DNA from: Streptacidiphilus carbonis
Lineage (GTDB): Bacteria > Actinomycetota > Actinomycetes > Streptomycetales > Streptomycetaceae
Assembly (NCBI RefSeq): GCF_000787775.1
Contig: NZ_BBPM01000001.1
Span: forward strand, 199,887 to 263,886
Length of the DNA stretch: 64,000 nucleotides
Direction of reading: 5' to 3'
Shown here: piece after piece, positions 3,119 through 46,938 of the stretch
Position numbering within the stretch: position 1 is the stretch's first letter
Layout: every line of letters begins with the position of its first letter
The notes under the pieces: generated by a model
Seen by the model: only the letters and a program-made list of their open reading frames with translations
Databases searched by the model: none
Told to the model about the DNA's origin: nothing
Made by a program: the position numbers and the translations under genes

Positions 3119-3642
3119 GACGCGGCCACCATGTCCGCGAGGGTGCTGAGCCGGGCACCGGTGAGGTCGATCCAGCGCAGGTCGGCCTCCAGATGGAACA
3201 GCCGGTGGTCGGCGAGCAGCGCGTCGACCGGGTCGCCGCTGCGACGAAGGGCCGTCAGTTCGCGCATCCGCTTGAGGTGCGAGGCGCGCTGGGCGTTGAG
3301 GTAGCCCTCGGCGTCGCGTCCCAGCATCAGCGCCAGCACGACCTTGACGAACAGTACGGTCTGCAGATTGGGGTCGCCGTCCACCGGCTCGGCCAGCCAG
3401 GACTCGACCTCGTTCCGGCCGGCCGGGGTGATCGCGTAGCGCTTGCGGTCCGGGCCGCTGCCGGCCTCGTTCTCCCCGGCGACGACCTTGCCGTCGCGGG
3501 CGAGCCGCCCGAGGGTCGAGTAGACCTGGCCGGGGGGAAGGGCCTTGCCCCGGACGAAGAAGGTGTCGTAGTCGCGCTTGAGGTCGTATCCATGGCTCGG
3601 CTCGCGGTCGAGCAGCCCCAACAGGGTCAGCGGAACACTCAT
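3115..3642 (-). CDS. PadR family transcriptional regulator
   Basis: A 175-residue PadR-type repressor: an N-terminal winged helix (LTLLGLLDREPSHGYDLKR, residues 5-24, the classic PadR start) and a C-terminal helical domain of the Vir family that dimerises. It is the first gene of an operon with an ABC ATPase and FtsX permease, so it most likely represses that exporter and itself. The minus-strand promoter has a TACGGT -10 element ending six bases before the ATG, so the transcript is probably leaderless. An inverted repeat lies just upstream (3657-3687). The ligand is unknown. Confidence 0.9.
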   Translation of the reverse strand: MSVPLTLLGLLDREPSHGYDLKRDYDTFFVRGKALPPGQVYSTLGRLARDGKVVAGENEAGSGPDRKRYAITPAGRNEVESWLAEPVDGDPNLQTVLFVKVVLALMLGRDAEGYLNAQRASHLKRMRELTALRRSGDPVDALLADHRLFHLEADLRWIDLTGARLSTLADMVAAS

Positions 3643-3648
3643 GGCGTT

Positions 3649-3687
3649 ACCGTACGCCGAGTATGGATACTGCGTCTATACACTCGG
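3649..3687 (-). promoter_or_regulatory. PadR promoter and candidate operator
   Basis: On the minus strand TACGGT (3649-3654) sits six bases before the PadR ATG, as in leaderless actinomycete promoters. Upstream, the arms CCGAGT (3657-3662) and ACTCGG (3682-3687) form an inverted repeat. Its core also has partly symmetrical GTATGGATAC/GTCTATACAC sequence. The repeat lies between this gene and the divergent methyltransferase and could control both. Confidence 0.5.
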
Positions 3688-3736
3688 TATCTACATCCGA
3701 ATATTGCGCTCAGCGGCCCCCCGGTAAGGTCTGCGC

Positions 3737-4384
3737 ATGGCTGAGCCGACTCATCTGACCGAGATCCGCGCCTCCTACGACACCGTCGCCGAGTCCTACG
3801 CCGGGCTGGTGGGCCCGGCCTTCGAGAACGACCTGCTGGGGCGTTCGACGATGGCCGCGTTCGCCGAGCTGGTACTGGCCGGCGGCGACCGCCCCGTCCT
3901 CGACGCGGGCTGCGGGCCAGGACATGTGACGGCCCATCTGCACACCCTGGGCCTGGACGCCTTCGGCGTCGAGCTGTCACCGGTGATGGTCGGGGTGGCC
4001 CGGCGGACGCACCCCGGTCTGCGATTCGACGTCGGCACGATGACCGCCCTGGACCTGCCCGACGGCGGGCTCGGGGGAGTCGTCGCCTGGTACTCGACCG
4101 TGCACACCCCCACGGAGGAACTGCCGGTGGCGTTCCGCGAGTTCCACCGGGTGCTGGCCCCCGGCGGCCACGTGCTGCTCGGCTTCCACGTCGGCGACGA
4201 GAAGCGCCGCAAGGACCAGGGCTACGGCCATCCCATGTCCCTCGACCTCTACCTGCGCCCACCGGAACTGATCGCCGAACTGGCCACCGCCGCCGGCCTG
4301 GTGCTGGACGCCACCCTGCTCAGGGACCTGCAGGGGCCCGGAGCCCCGCAGGCCTGCCTGCTGCTCCACCGACCGGGCGGATGA
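3737..4384 (+). CDS. Class I SAM-dependent methyltransferase
   Basis: A 215-residue protein with the Rossmann-like methyltransferase fold. Motif I is VLDAGCGPGHVTAHL (about residues 54-68), followed by the acidic end of the second strand (GVELSP), motif II (FDVGTMTALDLPDG) and a later ARVLAPGGHVLLGFH-type strand. The organisation is that of UbiE/Methyltransf_11 small-molecule methyltransferases; the acceptor is not predictable. TAAGGT at 3725-3730 ends six bases before the ATG and there is no Shine-Dalgarno sequence, so it is probably transcribed leaderless. It is divergent from the PadR regulator. Nothing ties it firmly to the exporter. Confidence 0.88.
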   Translation: MAEPTHLTEIRASYDTVAESYAGLVGPAFENDLLGRSTMAAFAELVLAGGDRPVLDAGCGPGHVTAHLHTLGLDAFGVELSPVMVGVARRTHPGLRFDVGTMTALDLPDGGLGGVVAWYSTVHTPTEELPVAFREFHRVLAPGGHVLLGFHVGDEKRRKDQGYGHPMSLDLYLRPPELIAELATAAGLVLDATLLRDLQGPGAPQACLLLHRPGG

Positions 4385-6050: not shown

Positions 6051-7802
6051 CTACTCCTCGGTGGGCCCGAGGTCGGCGACCTCGCGCAGGTCGACGGTGC
6101 GGCCGGTGGAGCCGTGGAGTTCGAGCAGGACGATCTCGTTGGCTCCGGGCCGCAGCACGGGGGCGGGCACGTACAGCGAGCGCTGCGGCCCGCGGGACCA
6201 GTAGCGGCCCAGGTTGAAGCCGTTGACCCAGGCGATGCCCTTGGTCCAGCCGTCCAGGTGCAGATGGCTGTCGGCTGAACGGTCGGCCTGGAAGGTGCCC
6301 CGGTGCAGCACCGGCCCGGGGACGGGGACGTCGGGGGCCGGGCCGAAGGCGAAGGGGGCGAGGTCGTCCAGCGGCAGCGGCAGGCTTGACCATTCGTCAG
6401 CCGGCTTGCCGTTGACCGTCACCGGGCCGATCAGGCCCTTGCGGTCGTGCAGGGCCGCCCCGTAGTTGACCCGCCCCTGGTTCTCCACCAGCACCCGCAG
6501 CTCCGCCCCGCCGTCGGGCACGGTGAAGACCAGGGTGTGCTCGTGGTTCTCGCGCTCCAGGACGCCCACCGGCTGCCCGTCCAGGAAGACCTGGGCGCGG
6601 TCGCGCACGGCGCCGACGGTGAGCCGGGTCGGTCCGGGCGTCCGCAGCCGGGTGGTGTAGAGCACGAAACCGAAGCTCTGCCCCAGCTCCTCCATGGTCA
6701 GCGGACGGTCGCCGGAAACCGGGGTGCCGAGGGCCGGGAGGTCGGCGAACAGCGGTGCCTGCTCGGTGAGTTCGATGCCGGACCGGGCGAACTTGGCGGA
6801 GGGCGCCGGGACCGGCTGCTCGGGCACCGACGCATGCCGGGCGATGACCTCGCGGAAGGCACGGTACTTGGGAGTGGCGTCGCCGGCCTCGTCGAGCGGG
6901 GCGTCGTAATCGTAGGAGGTGATGGTGGCGCGGTAGTCGCCCTTGTCGTTGGCGCCGTTGGTGAAGCCGAAGTTGGTGCCGCCGTGGAACATGTAGAAGT
7001 TCACCGACGCACCGGCGGACAGCATCTCGTCCAGGGTCCGGGCGGCGTCGGCGGCCGGGCGGACGGTGTGCTTGCCGCCCCAGCGGTCGAACCAGCCGTT
7101 CCAGAACTCGGTGCACATCAGCGGCCCGGTCGGCTGCTGCGCACGCAGCGCAGCCAGCCCGCGTTCCGCGCCGGAGCCGAAGTTGACGGTGCGCAGCACC
7201 CCGTCCAGGCCGCCGCCGGCCAGGTCGCCCGGCTGGTCGGAGGTGAACAGCGGGACGTCGACGCCGCGCTTGACCAGGGCCTGGGCCAGCCGGGTCAGAT
7301 AGCCGGCGTCCTCGCCGAAGGCGCCGTACTCGTTCTCCAACTGGACGGCGATGACCGGTCCGCCGCGGGTGGACAGGTACGGCAGGACGGCGGGCAGCAG
7401 CCGGTCCAGGTAGTCGTCGGTCGCGGCCACGAAGCCCGGGTGGGTGGTGCGCAGCTCCATGGTGGGGTCGGCCAGCAGCCAGGACGGCAGCCCGCCGCCC
7501 TCCCACTCGGCGCAGATGTAGGGTCCGGGCCGCAGCAGTACGTGCAGCCCCTCCGCCGCGGCCAGCTCCAGGAAGCGCGGCAGGTCCAGGATGCCGTCCA
7601 GGGAGAACACGTCCGGACGCGGGGCGTGCAGGTTCCAGGGGACGTAGGTGTCGACGGTGTTGAGGCCCATCAGCCGGGCCTTGTGCAGCCGGTCGGCCCA
7701 CTGCTCGGGGTGGACCCGGAAGTAGTGCAGTCCGCCGGAGAGGATGCGGAACGGCTGGCCGTCCAGGTGGAATCCGTCATCGGTGATGTCGAGTATGGCC
7801 AC
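6051..7802 (-). CDS. GH35 beta-galactosidase
   Basis: A 583-residue glycoside hydrolase of family 35. The N-terminal TIM barrel shows SGGLHYFRVHPEQW, TYVPWNLHAP, RPGPYICAEWE and the acid/base motif VQLENEYG (likely catalytic E158). The nucleophile motif is MCTEFWNGWFDRWGG (likely E232). C-terminal beta-sandwich domains follow, with the family-typical GWTKGIAWVNGFNLGRYW near residue 515. There is no signal peptide, so it should cleave galacto-oligosaccharides in the cytoplasm after import. It lies between the galactanase and the solute-binding protein gene. A hairpin at 7847-7873 separates it from the latter and may lower its expression. Confidence 0.93.
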   Translation of the reverse strand: MAILDITDDGFHLDGQPFRILSGGLHYFRVHPEQWADRLHKARLMGLNTVDTYVPWNLHAPRPDVFSLDGILDLPRFLELAAAEGLHVLLRPGPYICAEWEGGGLPSWLLADPTMELRTTHPGFVAATDDYLDRLLPAVLPYLSTRGGPVIAVQLENEYGAFGEDAGYLTRLAQALVKRGVDVPLFTSDQPGDLAGGGLDGVLRTVNFGSGAERGLAALRAQQPTGPLMCTEFWNGWFDRWGGKHTVRPAADAARTLDEMLSAGASVNFYMFHGGTNFGFTNGANDKGDYRATITSYDYDAPLDEAGDATPKYRAFREVIARHASVPEQPVPAPSAKFARSGIELTEQAPLFADLPALGTPVSGDRPLTMEELGQSFGFVLYTTRLRTPGPTRLTVGAVRDRAQVFLDGQPVGVLERENHEHTLVFTVPDGGAELRVLVENQGRVNYGAALHDRKGLIGPVTVNGKPADEWSSLPLPLDDLAPFAFGPAPDVPVPGPVLHRGTFQADRSADSHLHLDGWTKGIAWVNGFNLGRYWSRGPQRSLYVPAPVLRPGANEIVLLELHGSTGRTVDLREVADLGPTEE

Positions 7803-7846
7803 GGTTGTCTGGCTCCGCTATCGGTACAGGGGCGGTCGGGGCGGGG

Positions 7847-7873
7847 TCCGGCCGCCCGTGGTGGGCGGCCGGA
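7847..7873 (-). terminator. Intercistronic hairpin after binding-protein gene
   Basis: Perfect 11-base arms TCCGGCCGCCC and GGGCGGCCGGA with a five-base loop lie between the binding-protein gene and GH35. No T-run follows. It could terminate partially or protect the upstream messenger, a common way to make binding-protein transcript more abundant than enzyme transcript. Confidence 0.6.
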
Positions 7874-7898
7874 GGGATGGGCGGCCGGTGCGCGGTGC

Positions 7899-9269
7899 TC
7901 AGCCGTTGGCCACGGTGAAGCCCTGCTGGGTACCGTACTGGGAGATGCCGGTCTGCCAGGTCCCGAGTGCGGCGGACAGGTCGCTGCCGTTGGTGATGGC
8001 CTGGCCGATGCTGTCCTTGAAGATCGAGTTGGCGTAGACCTGGTAGGGCAGGTACTGCCAGCCCGCGGCGACCGCCTTGGAGGAGGCGGCGAAGACCTGG
8101 TTGGCCTTCTGCCCGTTGAAGAAGGGGAAGGTCTGGTCCAGGAAGGTGGAGCTGTTCAGCAGGGCCGTGGTGGCCGGGAACAGCCCGATGCTGTTGAGCG
8201 AGGCGGCGCCCTCGGCGCTGGAGTTGAGCCAGGCGGCGAAGGCCGCGGCGGCGGCCTTGTGGGTGCTGGTGGAGACCACCGCGTCGGAGGAGCCCCCGTT
8301 CTCCGCCGAGACGTTGTCACCCGCGGTCCACTGCGGCACCGGTGCGACGCCCCACTTGCCCTTGGTGTTGGCGATGGTGGTCTCCAGCGAACCCGGGGCC
8401 CAGGCGCCGGCGATCCACATCGCGTACTTGCCGCTGCCCATGCTCTTCCACCAGTCGGTGGTCCAGCCGGGGGTGGGGTCGACCAGCTTCTTGGAGAGCA
8501 GCGAGGTCCACATGGACGAGAACTTGGCCGAGCCGCTGTCCTTGAGGTTGACGTTGACCGAGGTGGAGCCGGTGGTCTGGAAGGGCTTGCCGCCGGCCTG
8601 CCAGATCAGGCTGTCGACGCCGCCGGCGTCGCCCGGGTCGATCGAGGTGATGTAGTGGGTCGGGTCGGCCGCGTGGATCTTGGCGGCGTCGGCCGCGAAC
8701 TCGGCCCAGGTGGTGGGCGCGGTCAGGCCCAGGCTCTTGAAGATGTCGGTGCGGTAGAACATCGTCAGCGGCCCGGTGTCCTGCGGGTAGCCGTAGATGC
8801 CGCCCTGCAGCGCGACCTGGTCCCAGGCCGAGGCCGTGTAGCCCGACTTCAGCGAGGCGGCGCCGTACTGGGTCAGGTCGACGACCTGCTTGGACAGGGC
8901 GAACTGCGGCAGCGCGAAGTACTCGATCTGGGCCACGTCCGGGGCGCCGCTGCCGGCCTTGATCGCGGTCTGCAGCTTGGTGTACTCGGCGGCGGACTGG
9001 CCCGCGTTCACCACATTGACCTTGATGTTCGGGTACTTCTTCTCGAACGCGTTCACCGTGGTCTGGATGCTCGGCACCCAGGTCCAGAAGGTGAGCGTGG
9101 TCGGGGTGTTGAGCGCGTCGGCGGCCGAGGACCCGGCGGCGGCCGGGTTGGCGGCCCCGTTCCCGGAGGAGCTGCTGCTGCAGGCCGCGGTCAGCGAGAG
9201 GGCCAGCGCGGCGGACAGTGCCAGCACCGTACGGGTCCGCAAGCGGGATGATCTGCGCGTGGTGTCCAT
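7899..9269 (-). CDS. Extracellular sugar-binding lipoprotein of ABC importer
   Basis: A 456-residue family 1 (MalE-type) solute-binding protein. A basic N-terminus and hydrophobic segment lead to the lipobox LTAAC, followed by a Ser-rich spacer, so it should be a membrane-anchored lipoprotein. The body shows the binding-protein pattern: TLTFWTWVPSIQTTVNAFEKKYPNIKV-like start split here across residues 55-80, PDVAQIEYFALP, PLTMFYRTDIFKSLG and MWIAGAWAPG. AGGAGA lies eight bases before the ATG. The genes for two permeases are just upstream and glycosidases are downstream. Substrate inferred from context: galacto- or arabinogalacto-oligosaccharides. Confidence 0.92.
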   Translation of the reverse strand: MDTTRRSSRLRTRTVLALSAALALSLTAACSSSSSGNGAANPAAAGSSAADALNTPTTLTFWTWVPSIQTTVNAFEKKYPNIKVNVVNAGQSAAEYTKLQTAIKAGSGAPDVAQIEYFALPQFALSKQVVDLTQYGAASLKSGYTASAWDQVALQGGIYGYPQDTGPLTMFYRTDIFKSLGLTAPTTWAEFAADAAKIHAADPTHYITSIDPGDAGGVDSLIWQAGGKPFQTTGSTSVNVNLKDSGSAKFSSMWTSLLSKKLVDPTPGWTTDWWKSMGSGKYAMWIAGAWAPGSLETTIANTKGKWGVAPVPQWTAGDNVSAENGGSSDAVVSTSTHKAAAAAFAAWLNSSAEGAASLNSIGLFPATTALLNSSTFLDQTFPFFNGQKANQVFAASSKAVAAGWQYLPYQVYANSIFKDSIGQAITNGSDLSAALGTWQTGISQYGTQQGFTVANG

Positions 9270-38935: not shown

Positions 38936-39724
38936 TCACTCCGGATCGCTGTCGAACTTCGCCTTCGACCAGTAGTAGCCGAGCACGGTCAGTCCGACGC
39001 ACCAGACGACGGCGAGCCACCCGTTGTTGCCGATCCGGCTGCCGAGGAGCAGGCCGCGGAGGGTCTCGATGGCGGGGGTGAACGGCTGGTACTGGGCGAT
39101 CGGCTGGAACCAGCCGGGCATCGTGTGGACCGGGATGAAGGCGCTGGACAGCAGCGGCAGCAGGATCAGCGGCATCGCGTTGTTGCTGGCGGCCTCGGCG
39201 TTCGGACTGACCAGGCCCATGCCGACGGCGATCCAGGTGAGGGCGGTGGCGAAGAGCACCAGCAGCCCGAAGGCGGCCAGCCACTCCAGGACGCCGGCGC
39301 CGGTGGACCGGAAGCCGATGGCGACGGCGACCGCACCCACCAGCACCACGCTGGCGACCGACTGCAGCACGCTGCCGACGACGTGCCCGATCAGCACGGA
39401 GCCGCGGTGGATGGCCATGGTGCGGAAGCGGGCGATGATGCCCTCGGTCATGTCGTTGGAGACGGACACCGCGGTGCCGATGGTGGTGCTGCCGATGGTC
39501 ATCAGCAGCAGGCCGGGGACGATGTAGGCGATGTAGTGGGCCCGGCCGGTGCCGCCGCCGATCCCCGCGCTCATCACATTGCCGAAGATGTAGACGAAGA
39601 GCAGCAGCAGCATGATCGGGGTGAGCAGCAGGTTCAGGGTGAGGGACGGGTAGCGCCGGGCGTGCAGCAGGTTGCGGCGCAGCATGGTGGTCGAGTCGCG
39701 TACGGCGAGGGGCAGGGTGCTCAT
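38936..39724 (-). CDS. ABC-2 type permease (DrrB-like)
   Basis: A 262-residue six-helix membrane protein of the ABC-2 exporter family. A cytoplasmic N-terminus with RNLLHARRYPSLTLNLLLTPIMLLLLFVYIFG (in pieces) is followed by VPGLLLMTIGSTTIGTAVSVSNDMTEGIIARFRTMAIHRGSVLIGHV, a conserved DrrB stretch read in parts. The membrane half of a drug or lipid exporter, as in daunorubicin efflux. Its ATG overlaps the ATPase stop by four bases. The substrate is unknown. Confidence 0.93.
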   Translation of the reverse strand: MSTLPLAVRDSTTMLRRNLLHARRYPSLTLNLLLTPIMLLLLFVYIFGNVMSAGIGGGTGRAHYIAYIVPGLLLMTIGSTTIGTAVSVSNDMTEGIIARFRTMAIHRGSVLIGHVVGSVLQSVASVVLVGAVAVAIGFRSTGAGVLEWLAAFGLLVLFATALTWIAVGMGLVSPNAEAASNNAMPLILLPLLSSAFIPVHTMPGWFQPIAQYQPFTPAIETLRGLLLGSRIGNNGWLAVVWCVGLTVLGYYWSKAKFDSDPE

Positions 39725-40686
39725 CGGACGTTCTCCTTGGACTGGGCGGGGATGCCGGCGCCGGCGCCGGTCAGGGTGAAGAACACGTCGTCGAGGTCGG
39801 GGGTGTGCACGCTCAGCTCGTCGGCCTCGATGCCGGCCGAGTCCAACCGGTCCAGGACGGAGCGCAGTTCGCGCTGGCTGCCGTCACTGGGGAGCTGGAG
39901 TGCCAGTGCCTCGTCGTCCGGTGCGGCGTCGGACAGGACGGCGGCGGCGTTCTGGTAGGCGGCCGGGTCGGTGAAGCGGAGCCGCACGTGTCCGCCGGGG
40001 ATGAGCCGCTTCAGCTCCTCGGCGGTGCCCTGGGCGACGATCGTGCCGTTGTTGAGTACCGCGATGCGGTCGGCGAGCTCGTCGGCCTCGTCCAGGTACT
40101 GGGTGGTGAGGAAGACGGTGACGCCGTCGGTGATCAGTTCGCGGATGATCTGCCACATGTTGTGGCGGGCGCGCGGGTCCAGGCCGGTGGTGGGTTCGTC
40201 GAGGAAGATGATCCGCGGGTTGCCGACCAGGGTCATGGCGATGTCCAGTCGGCGCTTCATGCCGCCGGAGTAGGTGGAGGCGGGCTTCTTCGCCGCCTCC
40301 ACCAGGTCGAAGCGCTCCAGCAGTTCGGCGGCGGTGCGGCGGCCCTCGCGCTTGGAGAGGTGGTGCAGGTCCGCCATGAGCAGCATGTTCTCCTCGCCGG
40401 TGATCAGGCCGTCGACGGCGGAGAACTGGCCGGTGACTCCGATCGCGGCGCGTGCGGCCTGGGGATCGGTGCTCAGGTCGTGGCCGCCGACGTGGATGCT
40501 GCCGGAGCCGGGGTCCGCGGAGACGAGCGTGGAGAGGATCTTGACGGCGGTGGTCTTGCCGGCGCCGTTCGGGCCGAGCAGGGAGAAGACCGTTCCTTCC
40601 GGGACGTTCAGGTCGACGCCGTCCAGGACGACTTTGTCGCCGTAGGACTTGCGCAGCCCGTTCGCCGCGATGGCCAGGTTGCTCAT
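39721..40686 (-). CDS. ABC transporter ATP-binding protein (DrrA-like)
   Basis: A 321-residue ATPase of the DrrA drug-export family. Walker A is GPNGAGKTT, the signature TYSGGMKRRLDIAMTL, Walker B RIIFLDEPTTGLDPRAR and the H-loop TTQYLDEADELADRIAVL. The C-terminal DrrA extension (about residues 225-321) ends in LSVHTPDLDDVFFTLTG. AAGGAG precedes the ATG. It lies 73 bases downstream of the DUF4097 gene and is coupled to the permease. The three probably form one exporter operon. Confidence 0.95.
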   Translation of the reverse strand: MSNLAIAANGLRKSYGDKVVLDGVDLNVPEGTVFSLLGPNGAGKTTAVKILSTLVSADPGSGSIHVGGHDLSTDPQAARAAIGVTGQFSAVDGLITGEENMLLMADLHHLSKREGRRTAAELLERFDLVEAAKKPASTYSGGMKRRLDIAMTLVGNPRIIFLDEPTTGLDPRARHNMWQIIRELITDGVTVFLTTQYLDEADELADRIAVLNNGTIVAQGTAEELKRLIPGGHVRLRFTDPAAYQNAAAVLSDAAPDDEALALQLPSDGSQRELRSVLDRLDSAGIEADELSVHTPDLDDVFFTLTGAGAGIPAQSKENVR

Positions 40687-40759
40687 GGTGGGTACTCCTT
40701 CTGGGGCAGCAGGTCAGGGACTGCGGATCAGGGTCGGGCCTCGGGCCGGGGCCTTCGGG

Positions 40760-41422
40760 TCAGAGGCTGCGGGCGCTGATGTCGCCCATGCCGGTGGTGG
40801 CGCGGATGTCGAGGCCGGTGGTGCCGTCGTTCTTGAGGGCGTTGCTGACGCGGCCGTGGCCGGTGCTCGCGTCCAGGGAGGCGGAGACCCCGACGGCCGC
40901 GCCGACCGAGATGTCGCCCATCTGGGTACTGAGCACCACCGCGCCGTTCTCGGCCTCGGTGATCCGGATGTCGCCGCGGGCGGTGCTGATCTCCGCGGGA
41001 CCGGTGAGCCGGCCGACCTCGACGTCACCGTCGACCGCGGTCAGACGCATGCTCGCGGCCTCGTCGATCTTGATCTCGCGATAGGCGCCGTCGAAGGCGA
41101 CGTCGCCCAGTCGGCCGACGACCCGCAGTTCGGTGCCGGATGTGCGGGCCTCGACCCGGGAGCCGGCGGGCAGTTGGACGGTGACCTCGACGGATCCGCT
41201 GGGTCCGAGGTACTGGTTCCTGGTCAGGCCCTGGATCCGCAGGACGCCGTCGGCGTATGCGACCGAGGTCTGTTCCGCGGCCTTCACGTCCCGGCTCTTC
41301 GATGCCTTGGCCGGGAGGATCTCGACCCTGGTGTCGGTCCGGTCGGCGGCGATGAACTGGATGCGTCCCGCGGGGATCTCCAGGACGGCGGTGATCGGGG
41401 CGGGGGTCTTGAACGTCTGCAT
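40760..41422 (-). CDS. DUF4097 family beta-strand repeat protein
   Basis: A 220-residue protein made of short repeating beta strands, with periodic G-D-I/V motifs such as LGDVAFDG, VDGDVEVGRL, ARGDIRIT, QMGDISVGAA and GMGDISARSL. These are the pattern of the DUF4097 right-handed beta-helix. There is no signal peptide or membrane segment. Proteins of this family are often encoded with DrrAB-like exporters, as here, but their role is unknown; a cytoplasmic adaptor or sensor for the exporter is possible. GGAGAA precedes the ATG. The promoter with a palindromic operator lies at 41461-41490. Confidence 0.85.
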   Translation of the reverse strand: MQTFKTPAPITAVLEIPAGRIQFIAADRTDTRVEILPAKASKSRDVKAAEQTSVAYADGVLRIQGLTRNQYLGPSGSVEVTVQLPAGSRVEARTSGTELRVVGRLGDVAFDGAYREIKIDEAASMRLTAVDGDVEVGRLTGPAEISTARGDIRITEAENGAVVLSTQMGDISVGAAVGVSASLDASTGHGRVSNALKNDGTTGLDIRATTGMGDISARSL

Positions 41423-42068: not shown

Positions 42069-42851
42069 ATGCTCCGATCTTTCGGAGAGCGAACGGCTGC
42101 GCCCCCGAGCAGCCGCCGACGGATCGCTCCCCCCGTCACGGCAGCGCTCGTCCTCGTGCTGCTGGGGTTCGTCGTCCCCGCTCTTCTCGCACCGTCCCCC
42201 GCACACGCCGAAGCGGCGGCGGCCGCCGTCGCGCCGATTCCCGGCTCACCGCTGGACGCCTACGACAAGGGTGTCAGCTACGACCCGGGTGTGCACATGA
42301 TCGCCCGGGTCTTCGCGCTGATCGCCTATGTACTGATGGTCGCCACCATCGTCCTCGGCGCTGTGCTGCGACTCAGATTCATGCAACGCGCCGTCAACCG
42401 GCAGACCTTCTACGGCGCCCATATGGTGCTGGCGCTCTCCGCCCTGATATTCGGCGCGCTGCACGGCTTCACGTTCGTGTACCAGCCGATCTGGCAGATC
42501 GGCGCGCGCGAACTGACCGTTCCGTTCACCGGCGGGGTGCAGCGGCTCCCGGTGGGGCTCGGCATCCTCGGCACCGAACTCGCCGTCGCCGTCGGCTGCT
42601 CGGTCTGGCTGCAGCGGCGGCTCGGCTACCACCGGTGGCTGAGGTTCCATCAACTCGCCTATGTCGCCTTCGCGCTGATCTGGCTGCATGTCTTCCTGGT
42701 GCACCCCGAACCGCGCCACGACAACCTGGTGGCGATCGGCGTCGCCGCAGGGGCCGGCACCTGCCTGTTCGCCTTCCTGATCCGCGCCTTCCCCTCGCGG
42801 TCCCGGCTGCGGCAGCGGGCCTTCCCCGCCGGTGAGGGGGTCGGCCGATGA
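42069..42851 (+). CDS. Ferric reductase-like transmembrane protein with NOX-type bis-heme histidines
   Basis: A 260-residue membrane protein. The first 47 residues resemble a signal peptide or anchor (RRRIAPP, hydrophobic core, AHA). About five more helices follow. The ferric reductase/NOX heme core is recognisable: H118 and H132 (14 apart) in one helix, and H194 and H207 (13 apart) in another. These are exactly the spacings of the heme ligands of gp91phox-type oxidases. The protein ends soon after the last helix and lacks the usual FAD/NADPH domain. The next gene, overlapping by four bases, supplies FAD and an iron-sulfur cluster. Inferred role: transmembrane electron transfer to an external acceptor. 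AAGGAG lies nine bases before the ATG. Confidence 0.87.
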   Translation: MLRSFGERTAAPPSSRRRIAPPVTAALVLVLLGFVVPALLAPSPAHAEAAAAAVAPIPGSPLDAYDKGVSYDPGVHMIARVFALIAYVLMVATIVLGAVLRLRFMQRAVNRQTFYGAHMVLALSALIFGALHGFTFVYQPIWQIGARELTVPFTGGVQRLPVGLGILGTELAVAVGCSVWLQRRLGYHRWLRFHQLAYVAFALIWLHVFLVHPEPRHDNLVAIGVAAGAGTCLFAFLIRAFPSRSRLRQRAFPAGEGVGR

Positions 42852-44653
42852 CGGACTCCCACTCCGGCTATCCGCAGGCGGCCTGTCCGCCCCCGCAGCC
42901 CGGCCGGCCCCGGGCCGGCCATCCTCAACTCCAGCCGGGCCGGCCCGAGCCCGGTCACTGGTACCCGGTGCCGGTCCAGCCCCAGCAGCCGGTCCCGATG
43001 CCGTCCCAGCAGTACCCGCCCCAGCAGTACCCGGTCGGCCCGCACCCGGTCCAGCACCTGCCGGTCCCGCCGTCCGAAGTGCGGCCCGCGCCGGTCCCGG
43101 CCGACTCCTTCGACCTCGCCCGCCCGGTGCTGGTCCCGGAGGCCGAGCCGGTCCGGGTCAGCGTGGACAACAACCGCTGCCACATCTACGGCATCTGCCA
43201 GCAGGAGGCGCCGGAGGTCTTCCGGATCTCCGAGGGCGGCTCGCTGCACTACACCCGCAGCGTGCCCGCACAGTTCGCGGCCCAGGCCCGGCAGGCGGTG
43301 CGCTGCTGCCCGATGCAGGCCATCGCGATCCGCGGCGGCGAGGCCCCGGGCGGCGGTTCCGCCGAACGCCGGGCCTCGGGCCGCCCGTTGCGGAGCGGAT
43401 CGGCCTCGCGGTCGAGCCGCAGGCGGATCGTGGTGGCCGGCGGCGGCCTGGCCGGGCTGAGCGCCGCGACCAGGCTCAGGGACCGCGGCTTCGACGGCGA
43501 GCTGGTCCTGGTCGGCGAGGAGACCCGCCGCCCCTACAGCCGGCCGCCGCTGTCCAAGCAGTACCTGGCGGGCGCGCTGGACGAGGACGACCTGGTCTTC
43601 CGGGCCGATGAGACGCTGGACGCGCACTGGCTGCTGGACACCCGGCTGGTCGGCCTGGACGTCGAGAAGCGCACCCTGGAACTGCGCGGAGGGGAGCGGC
43701 TGCCCTACGACGGGCTGGTGCTGGCGACCGGTGTGGACGCCAAGCGGCTGCCCGAGGCGCCGGTCTTCAGCGAGCGGGTGCGCACCATCCGCACCCTGGC
43801 GGACGCCGACGCGGTACGGCGGGCCATGCACGCCGCCCGCGCGCACCATGTGGTGATTCTCGGTGGCGGCTTCGTCGGCTGCGAACTGGCCTGCACCGCA
43901 CGGGAACACGGCATGGACGTGACCCTGGTGGTGCACAGCGCCCCGCTGCTGCGCCGGGTGCTCGGCAGTCAGGTGGGCACGGTGGTCGGCGACATCCAGC
44001 GCCGGGCCGGCGTCGACGTCCGGCTCGGCACCGAGATCACCGACTGGCAGGACCACGGCGACGTGCTGCGGCTGCGGTTGACCGACGGAGCGGTGCTGGA
44101 CTGCGACTTCGTGGTGCTCGGGCTGGGCAGCGAGCCGCGGACCGAGTGGCTGCGCGGCAGCGGGCTCGACGTTTCCGACGGTGTGCTCTGCGACCCGACC
44201 TGCCACGCGGTGGACGTGTGGGGCCGGTCGCACCCCAATATCGTCGCGGCCGGGGACGTGGCCCGCTGGCCCAATCCGCGCTTCGACGCGCAGCCGCGAA
44301 GGGTCGAACACCTGATCCACGCAGTCGAGATGGGCCAGCACGCCGCCGACTCGCTGCTGCGCGGCCCGGACCGCGCCGCCCGGTTCACCCCGGTACCGCG
44401 CTTCTGGTCCGAGCAGCACGGCACCCGGATCCAGGCCGTGGGCATCCCCGCGCTGGGCACGGACGTCGAGGTGCTGGAGGGCTCGCTGCGTTCGGAGCGC
44501 TTCATCGCCCGCTACACCAGGCCGAGCGAGTACGGCCCGCAGACGGTCGCCGTGGTCGCCTTCGACATGCCGCTGGAACTGCTGGCCTACCGGGACGACA
44601 TCGGCCGTACCCGTCCGCACTCGCGTCCCGTCAACCGAAGGAGGCGTCGTTGA
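42848..44653 (+). CDS. Ferredoxin (3Fe-4S) fused to FAD-dependent ferredoxin reductase
   Basis: A 601-residue fusion. Residues 1-90 are Pro/Gln-rich and probably disordered. Residues 101-165 form a ferredoxin with C111 (CHIYGIC, C-x5-C) and C117 plus C153/C154 before Pro, the 3Fe-4S pattern. From about 194 there is a BphA4-type reductase: FAD motif IVVAGGGLAGLSAATRL, RPPLSKQYL, LVLATGVDAKRLP, NAD(P) motif VVILGGGFVGCELACTA, and a late FWSEQHGTRIQ. The ATG overlaps the heme protein stop (ATGA). It could pass electrons from NAD(P)H via FAD and the cluster to the hemes. The fusion and this partner are unusual; reductase and ferredoxin are normally separate proteins feeding cytochrome P450s or dioxygenases. 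Confidence 0.9.
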   Translation: MTDSHSGYPQAACPPPQPGRPRAGHPQLQPGRPEPGHWYPVPVQPQQPVPMPSQQYPPQQYPVGPHPVQHLPVPPSEVRPAPVPADSFDLARPVLVPEAEPVRVSVDNNRCHIYGICQQEAPEVFRISEGGSLHYTRSVPAQFAAQARQAVRCCPMQAIAIRGGEAPGGGSAERRASGRPLRSGSASRSSRRRIVVAGGGLAGLSAATRLRDRGFDGELVLVGEETRRPYSRPPLSKQYLAGALDEDDLVFRADETLDAHWLLDTRLVGLDVEKRTLELRGGERLPYDGLVLATGVDAKRLPEAPVFSERVRTIRTLADADAVRRAMHAARAHHVVILGGGFVGCELACTAREHGMDVTLVVHSAPLLRRVLGSQVGTVVGDIQRRAGVDVRLGTEITDWQDHGDVLRLRLTDGAVLDCDFVVLGLGSEPRTEWLRGSGLDVSDGVLCDPTCHAVDVWGRSHPNIVAAGDVARWPNPRFDAQPRRVEHLIHAVEMGQHAADSLLRGPDRAARFTPVPRFWSEQHGTRIQAVGIPALGTDVEVLEGSLRSERFIARYTRPSEYGPQTVAVVAFDMPLELLAYRDDIGRTRPHSRPVNRRRRR

Positions 44654-44961
44654 GCCGGCGCGTCAACCGCAACCGCCGCGCCGGACGGGCCCCGTCCGGC
44701 GGGGCGCTGCCCTGGATGCTGAGCCTGCCGGCCCGGATGCACCTGCGCTGGCTGGTGATCCTTGTCGTCCTGGTGGCGGCGCTGGGGGCGTACGCCAGAG
44801 TGCTGGCGACGGCCGGGCCGATGCCGCCCGGCAAGGCGCCGGTGGTCGGGACGACGGTTGTCGGCACCCCGGTGGCCGGCACCCCGGTGGTCGGCAGGAC
44901 GTCGCCGTCGGAGCCATCGGTGCCGTCGACGTCACCGACCCCGACGTCCAGAGTGGGCTGA
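44650..44961 (+). CDS. Small single-pass membrane protein of the heme/ferredoxin operon
   Basis: A 103-residue protein not assignable to a known family. The TTG start at 44650 overlaps the upstream stop (TTGA), and a near-perfect GAAGGAGG lies five bases before it. A strongly basic N-terminus (SRRVNRNRRAGR) precedes one membrane helix (about residues 36-52, LVILVVLVAALGAYARV). The outside tail has a short repeat (VVGTTVVGTPVAGTPVVG) and a Ser/Pro/Thr-rich end. Topology by the positive-inside rule puts the tail outside. Coupling to the two redox genes suggests an accessory subunit or anchor. Confidence 0.75.
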   Translation: MSRRVNRNRRAGRAPSGGALPWMLSLPARMHLRWLVILVVLVAALGAYARVLATAGPMPPGKAPVVGTTVVGTPVAGTPVVGRTSPSEPSVPSTSPTPTSRVG

Positions 44962-44998: not shown

Positions 44999-45281
44999 TT
45001 GCGGCCGCACCGGGGCCCGCCTAGCCTGATGCAGTACCTGAAGCCGCCCGACAGGAGAAGGCCGTTGCTCGTCTGAGTCCGGAGACACCGCAGCCATCGT
45101 GCTCGCGTGCCCCAGTCCGACTCGGCGATCAGCCATGCCCTCCCTGTTCCTGGGCGGCGTTGTCGTTCGTGGCAGCTCTGTCGTTCGTGGCAGTTCTGCC
45201 ATAGCTGCTCCCGCAGTGTGTGCCTGCCTGCGGGGCTGTCGGTGTCTCCCTCCGTGCCGCCACTCACACCGACACCGGGAG
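44999..45281 (+). promoter_or_regulatory. ABC-F gene promoter and attenuator-like leader
   Basis: TTGCGG (44999-45004) and TAGCCT (45022-45027) are 17 bases apart, with an A-rich block just upstream as in WhiB7-type promoters. The long leader has AGGAGAAG followed by a minimal frame TTG-CTC-GTC-TGA (45065-45076). It also has two 15-base direct repeats TGTCGTTCGTGGCAG (45161 and 45179). The stem TGTCGGTGT (45237-45245) / ACACCGACA (45266-45274) competes with CTCCC (45246-45250) pairing to the GGGAG ribosome site (45277-45281). This fits ribosome-stalling control of a resistance gene, but it is inferred. Confidence 0.55.
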
Positions 45282-45288
45282 CCGCTCC

Positions 45289-46938
45289 ATGTCTCATACC
45301 GTGCACACCCCCACCACCCCCGCCGCCTCGCTGGTCTGCTCCGGACTCGGCTTCGGCTGGCCGGACGGCCGCATCCTGTTCAAGGACTTCGACCTGGCCG
45401 TCGGCCCCGGCCGGACCGGTCTGGTCGGGCTGAACGGCTCCGGCAAGTCCACCCTGTTGCGGCTGCTCACCGGTGAACTGAGCCCGGACGCCGGCAGCGT
45501 GGCCGTCACCGGCGCCCTCGGGTACCTCCCGCAGAACCTGGTACTGGACGCGGCCCTGCCGGTGGCCGAGGTGCTGGGCATCGCGGACACCCGGGCGGCG
45601 CTGCTGGGCATCGAGCGCGGTGAGGCCACCGAGGCGAACTTCGCCGTAGTCGGCGACGACTGGGACGTCGAGGAGCGGGCCAGGGCCACCCTGGACCGGC
45701 TCGGGCTCCGGGCCGTGCGCCTGGGCGGCACCGTCGGCGAGGTCTCCGGCGGCGAGGCCGTACTGCTGGGCCTGGCCGGGCAGTTGCTCAGGCAGCCCGA
45801 GGTGCTGCTGCTGGACGAGCCGACCAACAACCTGGACCTTGACGCCCGCGAGCGGCTCTACGACGTCGTCGCCTCCTGGCGCGGCGCGCTGGTCGTGGTC
45901 AGCCACGACCGGGAGCTGCTGGAGCGGGTGGACCGGATCGCCGATCTGCGCGACGGCTCGGTGCACTGGTACGGCGGCGGCTTCAGCGCCTACCAGGAGG
46001 CGCTGGCTGTCGAGCAGGAGGCGGCCGAGCGGATGGTCCGGGTCGCCGAGGCCGACGTCCGCCGCCAGCAGCGCGAACTGGTGGACACCCAGGTCACGTT
46101 GGCCCGGCGGAAGCGCTTCGGCCAGAAGCAGTACGACAGCAAGCGCGAGCCGAGGATCGTGATGAACGAGCGCAGGCGGCAGGCCCAGGTCTCCTCGGGC
46201 AAGCTGCGGATCCAGCAGCAGGAGAAGGTGGCCGAGGCCAGGGAGCGGCTGGCCGGGGCCGAACTGGCGGTCCGTGCCGACGCCGAGATCAGGGTGGACC
46301 TGGCAGCCAGCGAGGTCCCGGCCGGGCGCACCGTGCTGACGGTCCGCGGGCTACGCACCCGCTACGCCGCCGAAGGCGTGGCGCTCGACCTGGACCTGCG
46401 CGGCCCCGAGCGGATCGCCCTGGTCGGCGGCAACGGCGCGGGCAAGACCACGCTGCTGCGCACGCTGGTCGGCGAACTCGACCCGCTGTCCGGCGAGGTG
46501 GATCCGGCGGTGCCGCTGCGCTACCTTCCGCAGCGGCTGGACGTGCTCGACGACGACCTGTCGGTGGTGGGCAATGTCGCCCGCTTCGCCCCGTCCGCCA
46601 CCGACAACCAGATCCGGGCCCGGCTGGCCCGGTTCCTGTTCCGCGGCGCCCGGGCGGACCAGCAGGTCGCCACCCTCTCCGGCGGCGAGCGCTTCCGGGC
46701 CGCCCTGGCCGCGCTGATGCTGGCGGAACCGGCCCCGCAACTGCTGCTGCTGGACGAGCCCACCAACAACCTGGACCTGTCCAGCGTGCGCCAGCTGTCC
46801 ACGGCGCTCGCCTCCTACCAGGGCGCCCTGGTCGTGGCCGGCCACGACCTGCCGTTCCTGCACGGCGTCGGCATCACCCGCTGGCTGCGCCTGGACCGCG
46901 GGACCGGCCTGTCCCCGTGGCAGCCGCCGCAGGAGTGA
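45289..46938 (+). CDS. ABC-F family ATP-binding protein (antibiotic-resistance type likely)
   Basis: A 549-residue protein with two ATPase domains and no membrane helices. First Walker A GLNGSGKST and signature EVSGGEAVLL, Walker B LLLDEPTNNLDLD; second GGNGAGKTT, TLSGGERFRAAL and LLLLDEPTNNLDLS. Between them is a charged, coiled-coil linker (about residues 230-320, rich in Arg/Gln/Glu) of the ABC-F P-site tRNA-interaction type. The size matches actinomycete macrolide/lincosamide resistance ABC-F proteins, which displace the drug from ribosomes. A housekeeping ABC-F role is the alternative. The complex leader favours drug-inducible expression. The ATG at 45289 follows GGGAGC. Confidence 0.92.
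   Translation: MSHTVHTPTTPAASLVCSGLGFGWPDGRILFKDFDLAVGPGRTGLVGLNGSGKSTLLRLLTGELSPDAGSVAVTGALGYLPQNLVLDAALPVAEVLGIADTRAALLGIERGEATEANFAVVGDDWDVEERARATLDRLGLRAVRLGGTVGEVSGGEAVLLGLAGQLLRQPEVLLLDEPTNNLDLDARERLYDVVASWRGALVVVSHDRELLERVDRIADLRDGSVHWYGGGFSAYQEALAVEQEAAERMVRVAEADVRRQQRELVDTQVTLARRKRFGQKQYDSKREPRIVMNERRRQAQVSSGKLRIQQQEKVAEARERLAGAELAVRADAEIRVDLAASEVPAGRTVLTVRGLRTRYAAEGVALDLDLRGPERIALVGGNGAGKTTLLRTLVGELDPLSGEVDPAVPLRYLPQRLDVLDDDLSVVGNVARFAPSATDNQIRARLARFLFRGARADQQVATLSGGERFRAALAALMLAEPAPQLLLLDEPTNNLDLSSVRQLSTALASYQGALVVAGHDLPFLHGVGITRWLRLDRGTGLSPWQPPQE

Follow-up and report, generated by a model that had tools for sequence, protein, structure and literature searches.

Three overlapping genes for a putative transmembrane electron-transfer system lie on the forward strand of a 64,000-nucleotide stretch of Streptacidiphilus carbonis DNA (contig NZ_BBPM01000001.1, positions 199,887 to 263,886), which we call the window and whose own numbering is used below. 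The first gene, P1 (42069..42851, from ATG at 42069 to TGA at 42851), encodes a 260-amino-acid (aa) MsrQ-like/ferric-reductase-domain membrane protein. The second, P2 (42848..44653, from ATG at 42848 to TGA at 44653), encodes a 601-aa fusion of a Pro-rich segment, a ferredoxin and a flavin adenine dinucleotide (FAD) reductase, and the third, P3 (44650..44961, from TTG at 44650 to TGA at 44961), a single-pass protein of 103 aa. P1 and P2 share four bases (ATGA), as do P2 and P3 (TTGA). Re-reading of the window confirmed the open reading frames, the coordinates and both overlaps as they had been given in an earlier, model-made interpretation of the DNA letters (the sequence-only reading). The genome to which the window belongs comprises 8.46 Mb in 139 contigs; judged by P1, Streptacidiphilus jeojiense is its closest named relative (87%).

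P1, P2 and P3 form a conserved unit. When 394 genomes of Streptomycetaceae were searched for P1, 47 of them gave a match at E 1e-10 or better, and 40 strong matches (E 1.8e-29 or better) were spread over 37 genomes. The counts given here refer to 40 rows, namely 38 of these strong matches (the window included) and the two named loci L009 and L010; the two strong matches omitted both lie at contig ends, and in one of them (L033) the start of P2 follows P1. Duplicate copies of named loci were also left out of the counts, as were L078, L079 and L081 (P1 32% or less). P1 was at least 60% identical in 38 of the 40 rows and P2 was present in 35 of those 38, at 60% or more in 34 and at 57.6% in L075. 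P1 occurring routinely without its fusion partner, the pattern that the sequence-only reading had held against its own proposal, was not what we found: only three of the 38 loci had no intact P2, and at one of them (L074) the contig ends after P1. The other two were L062, with a P2 remnant, and L073, with only the Pro-rich start and the Arg-rich end. The four-base overlap of P1 and P2 is possible in 26 of the 38 loci (an upper bound, since the start nearest the P1 stop was taken), and that of P2 and P3 was seen in 27. The main search detected P3 in 32 of these loci, and a looser search or frame reading added three more. At L061 and L068 the gene order is changed, with P2 and P3 before P1. A set of 24 genomes lacking a strong P1 yielded no P2 orthologue; the best match there had 44% identity, and two matches extended into the ferredoxin part (G021, 102-590; G008, 115-556).

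The only Pfam family found in P1 was PF01794 Ferric_reduct (E 8.6e-9; the score of 35.9 bits clears the curated cut-off of 28), with no FAD/NAD domain, as expected for the membrane protein lacking an FAD/NADPH domain that had been described from the letters. The protein has a signal-like N-terminal helix followed by five further hydrophobic helices, and its histidines at 118, 132, 194 and 207 form pairs 14 and 13 residues apart (H-x13-H and H-x12-H). In the alignment of the 40 P1 proteins H118 is present in 40 and H132, H194 and H207 in 39 each, every miss being due to a truncated second copy (L076). Basic residues number 5, 4, 4 and 6 in the loops 1-22, 100-112, 181-192 and 239-260, and 2, 2 and 1 in the loops 42-80, 138-161 and 212-219. 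These charges fit the positive-inside rule, which places H118 and H194 towards the cytoplasm, as ligands of a predicted inner heme, and H132 and H207 towards the outer face, as ligands of a predicted outer heme.

The sequence-only reading had the positions and spacing of these histidines right, but it took the spacing to be that of gp91phox and labelled the unit a NOX. Among non-linked Ferric_reduct proteins the same spacing was found in 13 of 14 distinct ones (15 rows, in which L002 and L131 are one gene; the one exception, L128, was incompletely read). Because it is so widely shared, by this comparison the H-x13-H/H-x12-H spacing marks the ferric-reductase-domain superfamily and not gp91phox specially, and it was rejected as evidence for a NOX. 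A true split NADPH oxidase, producing superoxide outside, would nevertheless have the core ligands and cofactor order of NOX that are proposed here, and V362-H363 of the fused P2 would fit its NADPH. In addition, a profile of P1 run against the PDB gave its best match, at E 0.057, to a helix of entry 8qt6, which we take to be a NOX-like entry (SpNOX), aligned at H194/H207. What distinguishes P1 is that NOX carries an FNR-type dehydrogenase on the same chain, which is absent from P1; as the histidine spacing is shared across the superfamily and nothing was seen that points to O2 reduction, we consider such an oxidase improbable. The unit is better named as one of the MsrQ-like/split-NOX kind than as a NOX.

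The single chain with a Pro-rich N-terminus, a ferredoxin and FAD/NAD(P) domains that had been read from the letters is borne out by the composition and the Pfam domains of P2. About residues 1-99 (42848..43144) form a poorly conserved Pro/Gln-rich segment, with 29% Pro over residues 1-95, which is probably disordered. The ferredoxin domain follows (43145..43345; Fer4_13/Fer4_15 at residues 104-161), and then a FAD/NAD(P) domain of the BphA4/putidaredoxin-reductase type with Reductase_C and a C-terminal Arg run (43415..44653; Pyr_redox_2 at 193-496, E 6.8e-52, and Reductase_C at 519-589). The Arg run is present in six aligned P2 proteins, and relatives in the PDB include 3fg2, putidaredoxin reductase 1q1r and BphA4. 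In this fold a second nucleotide-binding strand ending V/A-H-S/G points to NADPH. The strand ends in this way in most fused forms, with H363 in 32 of 36 rows, and the unfused NADH-type relative at L077 has an acidic residue where fused P2 has V362-H363; V362/H363 thus point to NADPH as the donor that P2 would prefer. The cluster motif C111-x2-Y114-x2-C117...C154-P155 has all five residues in 35 of 35 fusions. Of the ligands first proposed (C111, C117 and C153/154), C111, C117 and C154 hold and C153 does not, residue 153 being V in 2 of the 35. The domain, with three Cys and a non-Cys at the fourth position, is predicted to carry a [3Fe-4S] cluster. Mycobacterium marinum ferredoxins with variable motifs, Tyr among them, are P450-associated, and those examined held [3Fe-4S], according to passages of PMC6237146.

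P3 has a basic N-terminus, one hydrophobic helix (about residues 35-53) and a Pro-rich tail predicted to lie outside, in keeping with the basic single-pass membrane protein, coupled by TTGA, of the sequence-only reading. It has the conserved pattern PAR..RW..I ... MPP...P and matched no family in the Pfam search.

Relatives of the unit were also found in unfused form. A P1 profile run over 394 genomes of the class scored more than 130 bits in the window's own genome and at 11 further loci (L112-L122) in 10 other genomes, the next match having 75 bits. A ferredoxin and a reductase follow P1 at all 11 loci and are separate genes, because their reading frames differ. One of these loci, L116, is cut by a contig end within the reductase, which was too short for the reductase tree, and at L115-L117 and L121 the stretch from P1 to the ferredoxin has no resolved gene start. 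The unfused ferredoxin has a long Pro-rich N-terminus at L114, L118, L119, L120 and L122. At L077, P1 is followed by a 92-aa ferredoxin whose stop overlaps the start of the reductase, and the Mycobacteroides abscessus plasmid pGD22-1 (L132, 9929-12862 of the locus) is annotated with a ferric reductase-like protein, a ferredoxin, an NAD(P)/FAD oxidoreductase and TauE/SafE. The four-His pattern is present in 12 of 12 unfused relatives (L112-L122 and L132) and in L077, and the C-x2-Y-x2-C...CP motif in all 12 of their ferredoxins, with F for Y in L077. Since P1, ferredoxin and reductase stand unfused at L112-L122, L077 and L132, the modules joined in P2 accompany the same P1 as separate genes too. 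P3 was not found by tblastn at any of the 12 unfused loci. The three-gene order that had been expected across actinomycetes holds in Streptomycetaceae, with the overlaps in part of the loci (P1/P2 in at most 26 and P2/P3 in 27 of 38). In other actinomycetes the modules are unfused, and P3 is not supported as a general part of the system.

The trees of the two proteins agree in their main groups. The reductase tree, built on 40 rows (11 taken from the 35 fused forms, with 12 unfused and 17 others), separated 23 P1-linked rows from the 17 others with a support of 100/100 and gave the fusion a single origin (99/97). The P1 tree (41 rows: 13 fused, 13 unfused and 15 others, two of them one gene) separated 26 linked rows from 15 others, again with 100/100, and recovered the fused group with 99/96. 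The other rows in both were picked by us from the best matches in the 24 genomes and in the window's own genome. Three groups came out in both trees, one of the fused forms, one of L114-L122 and one of L077, L112 and L113, while the placing of L132 differs; the branching order among the groups is not firm (87/11 for the unfused group as a whole in the P1 tree), and several outer rows are long-branched. By these trees, P1 and its donor reductase have an agreeing ancestry and the fusion arose once.

The same data bear on whether P2 is an ordinary redox partner of a P450 or a dioxygenase, with P1 and P3 as unrelated neighbours. Its domains belong to the same families as CamA/BphA4-type reductases and the ferredoxins of P450 systems, and the sister rows of the P1-linked group in the reductase tree include P450-linked reductases. 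Moreover, the G021 match mentioned above (L142, G021:C227), from the same bacterial family, joins a ferredoxin to a reductase and stands immediately before a P450 gene, so the fold and the fusion idea are already known from P450 systems and the difference is the client. The L142 reductase falls on another branch of the tree, outside the P1-linked one, and for this reason L142 is probably an independent joining of the same two modules. As a control, tblastn searches with one P450 query and with an ApbE query from the window's own genome were run on the 40 rows, the 12 unfused loci and 27 other loci. A P450 was matched in none of the 40 rows, the whole 64-kb window included, and within some kilobases at 1 of the 12 unfused loci (L121), as against 8 of 17 non-linked reductase loci, L142 among the 8, for which mostly smaller flanks were used (about 3 kb each side). 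The sequence-only reading had allowed that the fusion might belong to a P450 or dioxygenase; for P450 these counts argue otherwise, and we hold an ordinary redox partner to be very improbable.

A candidate for the outside acceptor came from the neighbouring genes. In genus g14 a Rieske gene lies in or beside the unit at 5 of 16 rows, in fetched flanks of up to about 8 kb. At L070 the order on one strand is P1, a HATPase_c_2 (anti-sigma kinase-like) gene (7526-7993, minus strand), P2, P3, Rieske and a signal peptidase I gene (3390-4307, minus strand). The Rieske gene lies between P3 and P1 at L061 and L068 and on the divergent side at L063 and L067; that the arrangements differ speaks against the linkage being no more than the inheritance of one order. 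Where full genes were read (L063, the second copy at L068, and L070), the N-terminus has a twin-arginine and lipobox-like signal, and the Pfam Rieske match had E 1.8e-14 at L070 and 2.1e-14 in the second copy at L068. In the 8.46 Mb of the window's own genome, six Rieske-like matches reached E 1e-5 or better, the best two with 53% and 64% identity, and none lies beside the operon. A Rieske motif match at L077 was spurious. The Rieske lipoprotein is a candidate acceptor, a lead and not a rule, and from its gene lying in or beside the unit in this one genus we infer that the acceptor is most likely a protein. A secreted family ('DPNCTLTVP...GLATPY'), mostly of 400-550 aa and found near 11 of the 40 rows (for example L068:2148-3716), was considered as acceptor and not adopted, since its position and strand vary and the two copies in the window's own genome (C28:6924-8339 and C135:189963-191348) are unlinked. 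Three members gave no match in Pfam, and in genus g14 the family is often accompanied by a response regulator and a histidine kinase.

Alternatively, the outer heme could serve metal uptake or detoxification by reducing Fe(III) or Cu(II), without a dedicated protein acceptor. Such metal reductases have precedent in the superfamily (passages of PMC3591440 and PMC8238504), and the outside residues D72, H76, H212, E214 and H217 are kept in 36-40 of the 40 P1 proteins; at L077 only D72 and E214 are kept. Some unfused loci lie among metal genes: a P-type ATPase and MerR, with MFS genes, surround the pGD22-1 unit, an imelysin/EfeO-like protein precedes P1 at L121, and CDF- and ArsR-like genes were seen by eye around L077. 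Against this, inspection by eye of the neighbour families that several of the 40 rows have in common revealed no metal gene, and a metal reductase seems to us rather unlikely. The same inspection by eye recognised no molybdopterin gene among the shared families, MsrP not having been searched for genome-wide, which weighs on the idea that P1 is an MsrQ feeding an extracytoplasmic methionine-sulfoxide reductase. P1 does have the PF01794 core, and among short proteins with it MsrQ is the one best known (passages of PMC8238504 and PMC5676040), but we give this MsrPQ form hardly any credence.

Named by eye, the genes flanking the operon in the window are a drug-type ATP-binding cassette (ABC) transporter ATPase and a DUF4097-like gene (39721-41422, minus strand) on one side and an ABC-F ATPase (45220-46938, plus strand) on the other. 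The pGD22-1 unit is annotated as divergent from BlaI/MecI and M56 genes; BlaI- and M56-like genes were seen by eye in the same place at L077, and an M48/M56-like gene was seen at L112.

Taken together, these results make it likely that P1, P2 and P3 constitute a chain for exporting electrons across the membrane, in which a P450-type donor pair has been captured by an MsrQ-like core. From the gene set, the ligands, the linkage and the agreeing ancestry, which were observed, we infer the cofactors, direction of flow, topology and contacts of this chain. P2 would take electrons from NAD(P)H onto FAD and hand them singly to its own [3Fe-4S] ferredoxin domain. That domain would reduce the b heme on the cytoplasmic side of P1 (H118/H194), and from the second heme (H132/H207) the electrons would go to an acceptor beyond the membrane. 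P3, seen only in Streptomycetaceae, may be an accessory membrane subunit. A single capture from P450 systems is the most likely origin of the donor pair, which would have been fused later, in Streptomycetaceae. The path from NAD(P)H through FAD, Fe-S and two hemes to an outside acceptor had been proposed by the sequence-only reading, and the conserved order, the unfused three-gene form and the agreeing trees support it well.

Several observations weigh against this electron-export chain. In the second operon copies L073 (genome G196) and L076 (genome G067), at about 8400-8800 on the reverse strand, P2 is a Pro-rich stub and P3 is kept, with a P1 that looks intact in L073 and is truncated in L076; each of these genomes has a complete P2 copy elsewhere (L068 and L052, respectively). 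P1 has no confident match to a solved structure: phmmer against the PDB gave none at E up to 1, and the profile match to 8qt6 was the best obtained. As to the heme sites and the docking, the structure models of P1 and of P2 were of low confidence, with predicted local distance difference test scores of 54.1 for P1 (8-row alignment) and 42.2 for P2 (6-row alignment). The Rieske linkage is confined to one genus, no Rieske gene being found in the other 24 rows or in the 12 unfused loci. A bolder version, a new class of electron export of single capture that ends in a Rieske [2Fe-2S] lipoprotein and powers reductive or oxygenating cell-surface chemistry, with P3 as a dedicated assembly or docking subunit, is less likely than not and should be taken as tentative.

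Few known routes carry cytosolic electrons to the bacterial surface, and the chain would, if true, add one and mean that redox partners thought to serve oxygenases can be rewired to membrane export, a P450-style ferredoxin feeding a transmembrane bis-heme core. The set is also small, with only three genes; its unfused form allows comparison, and the Rieske lipoprotein is a candidate partner on the outside. No description of this gene set was found among the listed papers of an open-access library and some of their passages, which agrees with the statement of the sequence-only reading that it knew of no characterised system of this composition. Among the additions that passages of PMC3591440 name for ferric-reductase-domain proteins are Rieske and ferredoxin domains.

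Among the known systems, NOX and SpNOX have the four-His two-heme core of P1, but the P1 chain is without their FNR-type FAD/NADPH domain and a ferredoxin is inserted in the path. Fre is a flavin reductase without Fe-S. The E. coli MsrQ (YedZ)-Fre pair, a two-component NOX-like split as told in passages of PMC5676040, resembles our system in its transmembrane electron transfer, and differs in its MsrP partner, which was not seen by eye among the shared neighbours here. In Actinobacteria, MsrQ-like flavinylation clusters, some of which have a NuoF-like donor (passages of PMC8238504), likewise pair a PF01794 core with an NAD(P)H donor that is cytosolic and separate. They differ in having ApbE, matched in 10 of 10 of their loci (the non-linked Ferric_reduct loci L123-L131 and L133) and in none of our 40 rows or 12 unfused loci, in a donor that, where read, is a complex-I-type flavoprotein and not a P450-type pair, and in a P1 lying across a 100/100 branch from the linked P1 proteins. 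One of these separate clusters is in the window's own genome (L131, G000:C91:21042-33437); in it, as in L123-L130 and L133, ApbE is next to Ferric_reduct, with a NuoF-like flavoprotein in those read. A small ferredoxin gene occurs in the L123-L126, L130 and L133 clusters and is not mentioned in those passages of PMC8238504. The P450 redox partners, such as M. marinum Fdx3/FdR1/CYP147G1 (passages of PMC6237146), share the reductase and ferredoxin families and the C-x2-Y-x2-C...CP motif with the present donor, but here the unit has no P450, the reductase has its own branch in the tree, and the client is a bis-heme membrane protein.

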